Shown here one piece after another: positions 33,768 through 36,432 of a DNA stretch of 36,432 nt. The position numbers and the translations under genes were made by a program. Source of the stretch: a virus; IMG/VR virus record IMGVR_UViG_3300032235_000857, positions 1 through 36,432 of that record; one strand, 5' to 3'. Numbering within the stretch: position 1 is the first letter of the stretch; each line of letters starts with the position of its first letter. The notes under the pieces are model-generated. The model searched no databases. It saw nothing but the letters and a program-made list of their open reading frames with translations, and was not told the origin of the DNA.

Positions 33768-34001
33768 ATGGAAAAAGGCGCTCTTAAACATTTAATCTAT
33801 GGTAGCTTAGAAGGGCTAATTCGAGATAGCCGCTATTACTACCACAGTTCTGTGGGGGAAGCTCACAGTCATTTTACTGACGAAGGCAAAGCGGCTGTAA
33901 CAGAGTTCATGGGTACCATAGCTTGCAAAATTCGAGCCGCAGAAGAAGCAGATCTTGAACGCAGAGCAAAAGAACAAACACTGGCGGCACTAAAATCATG
34001 A
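33768..34001 (+). CDS. Small protein of unknown function
   Basis: 77 residues from ATG 33768 (MEKGALKHLIYGSLEGLIRD), 1 nt after the ligase stop; a longer frame upstream is a shadow of the ligase. C-terminal helix is Ala/Glu/Lys-rich. Overlaps the first array gene by 4 nt. Confidence 0.62.
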   Translation: MEKGALKHLIYGSLEGLIRDSRYYYHSSVGEAHSHFTDEGKAAVTEFMGTIACKIRAAEEADLERRAKEQTLAALKS

Positions 34002-34243
34002 ACGAACGAATTCATGAACTTATCAAAGAGGCCACAGAATTCCAAAAGATTCCATATGACGGAATTGACGGGGTGTATAGAGAAGCATTTGTTTTTAATA
34101 AAGAAAAGTTCGTCGAGTTGATTGTGAACGAGTGTGTAGGTATTGTAGAAGGCGGAAGATTTCTACACGATGAAGCCCCTGCTGCTATTTTTGCCAGAGA
34201 ATGTAGTACTGCGATTAAACGACATTTTGGAGTTGAAGAATGA
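33998..34243 (+). CDS. Array paralogue 1 (MNERI...HFGVEE family)
   Basis: 81 residues. Starts MNERIHELIKEA, has the core EKFVELIVNECV, and ends KRHFGVEE. First of the tandem family; joined to the next by ATGA. Function unknown. Confidence 0.78.
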   Translation: MNERIHELIKEATEFQKIPYDGIDGVYREAFVFNKEKFVELIVNECVGIVEGGRFLHDEAPAAIFARECSTAIKRHFGVEE

Positions 34244-34506
34244 ACGAACGAATTCGAGAACTTTGGGATAAGGCTGCTACTGCCTCAGCCGCTTTTCCCA
34301 GTGGACAAAATAACTCTTGGGAAACTCAAGTTAAATTTATGGAAAAGTTCGCCGAGTTGATTGTTCGGGAAATGTGTGGAATGATGGAACAGGCCGAAGA
34401 TGATGCCTATCATTGTTTTGAACCCAGCGAAAGACCCACTGAATACATTGCATGGTTGAATCAGTGGCGAACAAGGTTTGAAAACCATTTCGGAGTTGAA
34501 GAATGA
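34240..34506 (+). CDS. Array paralogue 2
   Basis: 88 residues. Starts MNERIRELWDKAATASAAFP, core EKFAELIVREMC, ends NHFGVEE. Its first about 45 codons are almost identical in DNA to the gene at 36211. Confidence 0.78.
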   Translation: MNERIRELWDKAATASAAFPSGQNNSWETQVKFMEKFAELIVREMCGMMEQAEDDAYHCFEPSERPTEYIAWLNQWRTRFENHFGVEE

Positions 34507-34727
34507 CATACGGCGACTACAAATATATTATGCCATATCCAGAATCATATAAAGATAGATTTGCCTGGACTGTTCATACTAATAAATTAAAAGAAATGTC
34601 AGCGTGGGTTAGCGAACAAAAGTGGGACCATTGGGGAAGCGAAAAAACTCCCGATGGGTTTGGATTTTGGTTCAGTATTGAAGAAAATTATATTGCTTTC
34701 AAAGAACATTTCGGAGTTGAAGAATGA
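34503..34727 (+). CDS. Array gene with foreign body and family C-terminus
   Basis: 74 residues. Starts MTYGDYKYIMPYPES, unlike the family, but ends FKEHFGVEE, so only the 3' end is shared. Trp/Tyr-rich body. Coupled on both sides by ATGA. Confidence 0.75.
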   Translation: MTYGDYKYIMPYPESYKDRFAWTVHTNKLKEMSAWVSEQKWDHWGSEKTPDGFGFWFSIEENYIAFKEHFGVEE

Positions 34728-34933
34728 ACGAACGAATTCGTGAACTTTCTAAAGACGCCGATTTAGACTGGCATAAACATTGGAATGATGATGAAACTAA
34801 TCGGTTGGAAAAGTTCGCCGAGTTGATTGTGCGGGAATGTGTCTCTATCTGTAAAGAAAAAGAACGACCAAATTTGTATGGTGTAAGAGAAGTTGAAACA
34901 ACGATTAAAGAACATTTCGGAGTTGAACTATGA
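34724..34933 (+). CDS. Array paralogue 3
   Basis: 69 residues. Starts MNERIRELSKDAD, core EKFAELIVRECVSI, ends KEHFGVEL (the last residue differs from the family). Coupled to the next gene by a 4 nt overlap. Confidence 0.77.
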   Translation: MNERIRELSKDADLDWHKHWNDDETNRLEKFAELIVRECVSICKEKERPNLYGVREVETTIKEHFGVEL

Positions 34934-35430
34934 ACGCAACTAACCCTATTGAAACACTAGCTGGCTGTATGGCTCACGCCGCATACGAAGCCTTTCCCGA
35001 ATACCGGTACAAAGACCGTAACTGGGAAAAGTACAGGGTCTGGCAAGATACTGTATTCAACAAGCTGAGTCAAGAAGATAAAAAGAAACTCTACGCTGAG
35101 GAACGCCAGACCGGTGTGGCCATGGGACCAGCTGATTGTTATGTAGAAAAGTTGCGTAAGCACTCATTCTATGACTTGACATTGTATAATATGTTCCCTC
35201 AGACCTGGAGTAGCACTGCACTGGGCTTTGGTGGCATTGGCGGGCAAGCTATTACCAGTGCCTATGTATGTGTTATCGAATCTAACTTAATCGGACAATA
35301 TGCTGTTTACTTTGGCGGCAGACTGGCTTATGTGATTGAGAGACCCAATGAGAAGTTTGTAGAGGATATTACACGCCAGCGAATGGTGGATGCTCGGTTA
35401 GGAAAGGCTACATATGAACGAACGAATTAA
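34930..35430 (+). CDS. Inserted gene of unknown function in the array
   Basis: 166 residues, unrelated to the array family: MNATNPIETLAGCMAHAAYE onward, with a mixed helical start and a Gly-rich centre (LGFGGIGGQAIT). Its last codons (ATYERTN) are read out of frame through the repeated start sequence ATGAACGAACGAATT of the next gene, so the two ends were joined by recombination. Confidence 0.72.
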   Translation: MNATNPIETLAGCMAHAAYEAFPEYRYKDRNWEKYRVWQDTVFNKLSQEDKKKLYAEERQTGVAMGPADCYVEKLRKHSFYDLTLYNMFPQTWSSTALGFGGIGGQAITSAYVCVIESNLIGQYAVYFGGRLAYVIERPNEKFVEDITRQRMVDARLGKATYERTN

Positions 35431-35629
35431 ACAACTTGCTGAACAGGCTACTACTATTGTAGATACGGTTAACTCACAAGGTTATTCAAGTTCCTATGCA
35501 AACTTTGACCGAGAAAAGTTTGCCGAGTTGATTGTGAAAGAAATATTAGTGACTTGTATAGAACATCCTGCCTGGACTGGTCGTATGATTGGTGAACAGA
35601 TTAAACAACATTTCGGAGTTGAAGAATGA
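35414..35629 (+). CDS. Array paralogue 4
   Basis: 71 residues. Starts MNERIKQLAEQAT, core EKFAELIVKEIL, ends KQHFGVEE. Begins inside the end of the upstream gene (17 nt overlap). Confidence 0.77.
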   Translation: MNERIKQLAEQATTIVDTVNSQGYSSSYANFDREKFAELIVKEILVTCIEHPAWTGRMIGEQIKQHFGVEE

Positions 35630-35838
35630 ACGAACGAATTAAAGCCCTTATGGGAAAGACACTGGATAGCGAATTTAGTCACACCTGGGACACTATGACA
35701 TATGAAGGCTTGCTACAGTTTTCAGAAAAGTTCGCCGAGTTGATTGTACAGGAATGTGCTGATTATGTTGACTTTGCTATCAGTGACGGTGGTGTTGACG
35801 GTCGAAGTTTAAAAGAACATTTCGGAGTTGAAGAATGA
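35626..35838 (+). CDS. Array paralogue 5
   Basis: 70 residues. Starts MNERIKALMGKT, core EKFAELIVQECADY, ends KEHFGVEE. ATGA overlaps on both sides. Confidence 0.77.
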   Translation: MNERIKALMGKTLDSEFSHTWDTMTYEGLLQFSEKFAELIVQECADYVDFAISDGGVDGRSLKEHFGVEE

Positions 35839-35981
35839 TTGAATGGACTACACATTTTAAGTTTCTTGGATTTACAGTACAAACCTGCGATTATGGTGGA
35901 CGCTATATTTGGTGGCGACTTGGTAACTTTAATATTGGGTACAGCCGGGATCCTGACTTTAGTAAGATGGAACAAGAATGA
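35835..35981 (+). CDS. Very small inserted gene
   Basis: 48 residues from ATG 35835 (MIEWTTHFKFLGFTVQ) to TGA 35981; aromatic-rich, ending KMEQE. Overlaps the next gene by 4 nt. Unrelated to the array family. Confidence 0.62.
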   Translation: MIEWTTHFKFLGFTVQTCDYGGRYIWWRLGNFNIGYSRDPDFSKMEQE

Positions 35982-36214
35982 TTTGGGTTTTAGGAATTGC
36001 TGTATTTTTTCTGCTATGGGCACTAATTGAAGGCGAAGACCATAAGTTTGGTTATCACTATCTTTGGATCATTCCTTTAGGTGTTGTAATTGTTCCGTTC
36101 TTGTGTATAATCGAAGGAATTTATAGATCCGTAAAATGGTTAAGAATGCGTTGGATCTATTTCAGAAATCCCAAACTTAAAGAGTTAGCAAAATTGTCAG
36201 GAGTAAAGAAATGA
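35978..36214 (+). CDS. Small membrane protein inserted in the array
   Basis: 78 residues. Two hydrophobic segments, MIWVLGIAVFFLLWALI (1-17) and WIIPLGVVIVPFLCIIEGIY (30-49), then a basic C-terminus. Unknown function. Confidence 0.7.
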   Translation: MIWVLGIAVFFLLWALIEGEDHKFGYHYLWIIPLGVVIVPFLCIIEGIYRSVKWLRMRWIYFRNPKLKELAKLSGVKK

Positions 36215-36426
36215 ACGAACGAATTCGAGAACTTTGGGACAAGGCTGCTACTGCCTCAGCCGCTTTTCCCAGTGGACAAAATAATTCTTGGGAAACTCAG
36301 GTTAACTTTATGGAAAAGTTCGCCGAGTTGATTGTCAGGGAATGTGCTGGCATTGCCGATGAATATGATGGTGTGGGTTCTACTATTGTAAGCAGGATCA
36401 AACAACATTTCGGAGTTGAAGAATGA
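36211..36426 (+). CDS. Array paralogue 6
   Basis: 71 residues. Starts MNERIRELWDKAATASAAFP, core EKFAELIVREC, ends KQHFGVEE. Nearly the same 5' half as the gene at 34240, and a different 3' half. Overlaps the next start by 4 nt. Confidence 0.78.
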   Translation: MNERIRELWDKAATASAAFPSGQNNSWETQVNFMEKFAELIVRECAGIADEYDGVGSTIVSRIKQHFGVEE

Positions 36427-36432
36427 ACGAAC
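36423..36432 (+). CDS. Start of another array gene (cut by window end)
   Basis: ATGAACGAAC at the very end continues the pattern, so the array goes on beyond the window. Confidence 0.7.

Follow-up and report, generated by a model that had tools for sequence, protein, structure and literature searches.

The window, the whole 36,432-base IMG/VR contig analysed here (G000, classed as linear), terminates inside a tandem array of small overlapping genes. Six full members of one family, with MNERI at the start, EKFAELIV in the core and HFGVEE at the end, are confirmed on the plus strand from position 33998 onward, interspersed with a tail-only chimera and unrelated genes. The original prediction had counted at least seven genes carrying all three motifs: the array exists, but the count comes down to six, the gene at 34503 having only the tail. 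The motifs themselves hold in general, apart from EKFVELIV in member 1 and HFGVEL at the end of the gene at 34724.

33998..34243, + strand: full member 1, 81 aa, core reading EKFVELIV
34240..34506, + strand: full member 2, 88 aa
34503..34727, + strand: tail-only chimera, an unrelated 74-aa body ending in KEHFGVEE (FKEHFGVEE)
34724..34933, + strand: full member 3, 69 aa, ending in HFGVEL
34930..35430, + strand: unrelated 166-aa gene starting at the tail-block ATG
35414..35629, + strand: full member 4, 71 aa
35626..35838, + strand: full member 5, 70 aa
35835..35981, + strand: unrelated 48-aa gene starting at the tail-block ATG
35978..36214, + strand: unrelated 78-aa gene with hydrophobic segments, ending in GGAGTAAAGAAATGA
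36211..36426, + strand: full member 6, 71 aa
36423..36432, + strand: further head block, first 10 nt only, cut by the contig end
34240..34254, + strand: head block ATGAACGAACGAATT; copies at 33998, 34724, 35414, 35626 and 36211
34345..34364, + strand: core block AAGTTCGCCGAGTTGATTGT; copies at 34106, 34811, 35516, 35728 and 36316
34486..34506, + strand: tail/junction block CATTTCGGAGTTGAAGAATGA, with a GGAG Shine-Dalgarno; copies at 34223, 34707, 34913, 35609, 35818 and 36406

The blocks occur in the window far more often than expected by chance (core six against 0.00, tail seven against 0.01, head six against 0.17), so that chance is excluded. Genes from 33768 onward meet at ten junctions; nine of these are 4-nt ATGA overlaps, while at the tenth the genes overlap by 17 nt. 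The fixed ATGA junction foreseen at the outset is thus the rule, with a single exception. The chimera at 34503 has a homologue with an identical tail (L124:6937-7161), and a homologue of the 34930 gene, in L063 (10222-10647), starts at a member's tail. Between ATG and core end, the genes at 34240 and 36211 differ at about four positions; beyond the core they are unrelated. They form a mosaic inside the window contig, with the same N module joined to different C modules. Elsewhere in the window (610-31199), host-like genes for a UvdE nuclease, ClpP, PstS-like and TctC-type binding proteins, a peroxiredoxin (AhpC/TSA), a class II aldolase and serine hydroxymethyltransferase suggest a Burkholderiales-type host.

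Relatives and protein models

A degenerate-peptide scan of IMG/VR recovered at least 334 confirmed relatives among the matches listed; a search of metagenomes for these motifs had been proposed with the original prediction. A second, independent IMG/VR scan used the DNA junction, and its matches are likewise to be read as 'at least'. Twenty large records (89-374 kb) carry between 1 and 17 family copies each, with no internal stop in any listed match across them. A T4-type Gp23 capsid match is present in 12 of these 20 (11 over the curated cut-off) and a RecA/UvsX-type protein in nine. The bacterial genome collection scanned yielded eight MAG contigs and no more, all of them short (3-9 kb), and hence no evidence of a cellular family. 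The GenBank phage collection held no close DNA match for the window and no match for the 36211 member, while the 34240 member matched only at E≥2 by tblastn. With both scans near-empty, this looks like a family of uncultured phages: virus-specific, with proteins of 65-105 aa, and abundant in IMG/VR. Judged by the ligase, the closest relatives of the window are L206, L207 and L210 (89%, 85% and 77% protein identity), in each of which a single family member follows the ligase; in L207 the contig stops at this place.

Literature searches found no publications on these motifs or on such arrays. Scans of the window members and 107 relatives against Pfam, PHROGs, NCBIfam and PADLOC gave only isolated weak single-member hits, and no defence, anti-defence or inhibitor family matched the members in the database scans. 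PDB sequence and fold searches returned nothing significant, with no fold match at E≤0.001; a resemblance of the 34240 model to small terminases was set aside (E>1). AlphaFold2 models the 35414 protein as helix, hairpin, helix, helix (pLDDT 91.5) and the 34240 protein as three helices (pLDDT 92.2). Mapped on both models, the blocks are predicted to be parts of helices and the N module a hairpin or linker, while the C module would lengthen helix 2 and make up most of helix 3. The best BFVD structural matches, A0A6J5LGJ4 and A0A6J5M7V8 (E 1e-4 and 3e-3), are uncharacterised proteins of uncultured Caudovirales phages that are probably family members; they share the structural likeness and come with no described function or array analysis.

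Assortment of modules and positions of breakpoints

Each gene can be divided into an N module, from head to core, and a C module, from core to tail. In 81 of the 86 pairs that share an N module at ≥75%, the C modules are unrelated; in 67 of the 78 pairs that share a C module, the N modules are. A cluster analysis covered 439 members among the IMG/VR matches listed, after removal of loci fetched twice. Membership of the same N cluster unites 244 pairs among these members, and only 10 of the pairs also share a C cluster, against 0.5 expected at random, which leaves a residual N-C linkage. Nearly all multi-member clusters have more than one partner (69/72 for N, 60/63 for C), and some modules are 98-100% identical in DNA yet joined to different partners. 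The modules of the window take part: the C module of member 1 (33998) recurs elsewhere joined to four different N modules (L007, L008, L009 and L010), that of member 2 (34240) in L145 and L283, and that of member 4 (35414) in L165. Movement of domains between the two slots was rejected, since no N-C cross-similarity rose above shuffled controls; the modules are position-locked. On these comparisons, each gene consists of two independent modules. As an intragenic exchange point, the core allows N and C modules to assort independently.

The breakpoints at module borders fall inside short shared DNA sequence. Where genes have an N module in common, their DNA match, as high as 100% identity, breaks off in 43 of 66 pairs 0-5 nt from the ATG; on the other side it continues about 18-35 nt into the core. 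Among pairs that share a C module, the match reaches only 0-8 nt to the left of the core in most. Whole arrays come and go as well. The genes adjoining the array are 97.5% identical between L085 and L088, with an 8-member insertion of about 2.8 kb in L088 only, and downstream of it the allelic genes L088:8999 and L085:7708 have the same N module and different C modules. In L008 and L011, pieces at 89-98% identity are arranged in different order. L133 and L088, by comparison, are 99.99% identical over 8.4 kb, and L055 and L058 about 99.7% over 17.7 kb, which shows arrays to be stable on short time scales and separate assemblies to agree. Module independence, breakpoint positions, array gain and loss and the allelic difference in the C module are thus shown by sequence comparison.

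The original prediction held that recombination at fixed junctions adds, removes or swaps whole genes with coupling kept. The presence or absence of an array between 97.5% identical flanks bears this out, as do breakpoints at the ATG, and close relatives show the expected turnover in array content (L085/L088, L008/L011) alongside some stable arrays. The proposed layout has good support as regards whole-gene exchange but overlooked the core as a point of exchange within the gene, the independent assortment of N and C modules, and the conservation of the blocks as DNA.

Conservation of the blocks and translational coupling

At 15-21 nt in length, the blocks are nearly invariant as DNA. With codon-neutral retrieval, the core uses GCC for alanine in 89% of cases (background 21%), GAG for glutamate in 90% (25%) and TTG for leucine in 90% (24%), and the head uses CGA for arginine in 90% (13%). 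The same near-fixed codons occur in members outside both retrieval patterns and in the few found beside ligases; motifs of the ligases, by contrast, vary freely among related phages. Within one set of gene pairs, 42-44% of synonymous codons differ in the modules versus 7-21% in the blocks. The modules are under purifying selection (dN/dS 0.17 for N and 0.13 for C), which marks the products as working proteins and not filler. Block conservation at synonymous sites and purifying selection on modules are likewise shown by the sequences.

For the tail block, this conservation is partly explained by translation: it encodes the Shine-Dalgarno GGAG and overlaps the next start codon. Of 275 members, 242 end in ATGA, and 229 of these open an ORF of ≥30 aa, in keeping with the swapping of genes at junctions that had been predicted. 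Only 80 of the 229 ORFs are family members; nonredundant unrelated genes using the tail-block start number 109. The core block is without such a translational explanation. Neighbouring cargo genes are of several kinds (NUDIX, kinase, heme oxygenase, T5orf172 domain) and show neither a functional theme nor visible defence enrichment. In L194 (1087-1629), the heme oxygenase gene starts at a family member's tail ATG, so metabolic genes can sit in arrays. A T5orf172/MUG113-type (GIY-YIG-like) protein in L055 (13115-13624) also starts at a member's tail ATG and is itself fused to an HFGVEE tail. Very short ORFs that end in MWQEHFGVEE ahead of a start codon, in L115 and L219, look like bare leader peptides built of the tail block.

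Mechanism, alternatives and known systems

Most probably, homologous recombination at short coding blocks assembles these two-slot small proteins. In the family plan, the N module lies between the head and core blocks and the C module between the core and tail blocks; the blocks would encode parts of a helical scaffold, and the tail block also supplies the Shine-Dalgarno and start of the next gene. During replication or co-infection, general homologous recombination, by a phage UvsX/RecA-type or a host enzyme, would let the blocks of different genes or phages pair, so that N modules, C modules, whole genes or gene runs are exchanged, and the products would remain in frame and translationally coupled. 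Across many uncultured large phages, modules appear to have been recombined repeatedly within and between phages with the operon left intact. A diversity-generating retroelement was rejected, as the reverse transcriptase RVT_1 was found in 0 of 15 possibly incomplete records, the window among them, and site-specific recombination or a shufflon likewise (tyrosine integrase in 0/15 records, resolvase in 1/15). No stand-alone recombination sites emerged from 286 loci scanned for the core block, whose matches lay in family-like reading frames in the cases inspected. Counting against recombination at the blocks are the stable arrays, the residual N-C linkage and the fact that no recombinase was found in the window contig, which is a fragment. 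RVT_1 and tyrosine integrase being absent from the 15 records and RecA-type proteins common, the most economical explanation is homologous recombination between blocks. Which recombinase acts would follow from this account only by inference; the block DNA may be kept because it recombines, or its conservation may result from frequent exchange without selection for it, and the proteins may have varied targets in the host.

Small genes of unknown function make up the majority in phages, and where they come from is an open question. The in-frame units of this family have been exchanged recently, have defined borders and carry a ready-made translational start for the next gene. The arrays offer a model, open to testing, of the way in which phages put new small proteins together, and a catalogue of modules for screening. 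Clustering of whole proteins will split such families, as the absence of this one from PHROGs and Pfam despite its abundance in IMG/VR illustrates.

A stronger version, possible but less likely than not, is that the three DNA blocks are maintained as recombination sites, forming a combinatorial engine free of reverse transcriptase and integrase that builds two-module host-interaction proteins from a module pool common to many uncultured phages. An anti-host role of the small proteins is a plausible hypothesis. The idea of the original prediction, a dedicated generator of anti-host or anti-defence proteins in which swapping is selected for new target specificities, is compatible with recombination at the blocks and adds a purpose; we regard it as possible, short of an even chance. 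A constant helical scaffold with plug-in segments (helix, hairpin and two helices in one model, three helices in another) would suit it, as do the functional constraint on modules and the rarity of the same N module twice in an array (4/439), but no defence, anti-defence or inhibitor family matched, the cargo lacks defence enrichment, and selection on the modules is purifying, not diversifying.

Slightly less likely, and rather doubtful, is the notion of selfish recombinational modules, whose blocks spread because matching DNA recombines while the proteins have modest or interchangeable roles. The tail block has spread onto unrelated bodies in 17 tail-only ORFs, and 120 of 134 pairs of loci sharing modules have no other similarity of ≥400 nt within the fetched stretches, both as expected of such elements; strong purifying selection and the lack of internal stops in the listed matches of the 20 large records speak against it.

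That the blocks are kept for translation or protein reasons only (Shine-Dalgarno, start context, scaffold residues), with illegitimate recombination joining modules and selection retaining in-frame products, is improbable. It accounts for a GGAG correctly spaced from the ATG that the tail block overlaps, for the 229 of 242 tail ATGs that open an ORF (with the 109 unrelated genes) and for isolated tail blocks on unrelated ORFs, but leaves the synonymous conservation of the mid-gene core (GCC, GAG, TTG, AAG) unexplained, and breakpoints lie inside blocks, not scattered. Chimeric assembly from short repeats is very improbable: it would fit the presence of repeats, a window that stops within the array and the purely metagenomic origin of the data, but the repeats (about 20-30 nt) are shorter than reads, separate contigs agree (L133/L088, L055/L058), and misassembly cannot give different partners to copies of a module that have diverged (about 0.5 in synonymous differences).

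PeSLs are promoter-terminator motifs. Together with the mobile regulatory cassettes of T4-type phages, they were reportedly described by Arbiol in 2010 and Comeau in 2014, and as short conserved elements are said to be proposed mediators of gene shuffling in T4-type accessory regions. The T4-type setting is similar, given the Gp23 matches in 12 of the 20 large family-carrying records (the window's own phage lies outside that count). The PeSL reading was nevertheless rejected: the blocks are coding, one of them intragenic, the genes overlap, and promoter-like and terminator-like sites in the array do not exceed chance (7 against 6.1 expected and 3 against 2.0).

The HsdS subunit of Type I restriction systems in Helicobacter pylori has the order TRD1-conserved-TRD2-conserved, with one TRD1 found with many TRD2 (PMC3077401). 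As in the phage family, two independently assorting variable modules are separated and flanked by conserved segments where recombination swaps modules. There is no homology (sequence searches of Pfam, NCBIfam and PDB, and a fold search of PDB at E≤0.001, gave no match); HsdS is a large DNA-recognition subunit, whereas the phage proteins are 70-90 aa and lie in phage arrays, and TRDs can change position in some groups, unlike the position-locked phage modules. Lambdoid phages have short conserved boundary sequences, and gp67 and gp68 of Island3 have a common 18-residue C-terminus (PMC3029335). Recombination of neighbouring small genes at a short stretch of homology, and a C-terminal tail in common, recur here, but that case is a single gene-boundary event, whereas the phage family is large, with an extra intragenic block and combinatorial modules. 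By this comparison, the logic is closest to TRD swapping in HsdS and to short phage boundary sequences; it differs from both in that the blocks are coding and partly intragenic, within translationally coupled arrays of small-protein genes.

A second tandem array, in L210 (17838-19998), encodes unrelated proteins of 65-105 aa with the common C-terminus (D/E)AxLFALRW, and its DNA tail (CTGAGGTGGGCATGA) likewise holds a Shine-Dalgarno-like GAGG and an overlap with the start that follows. Proteins resembling these in L061 and L149 end in the HFGVEE tail instead, and the two observations together suggest a general design.
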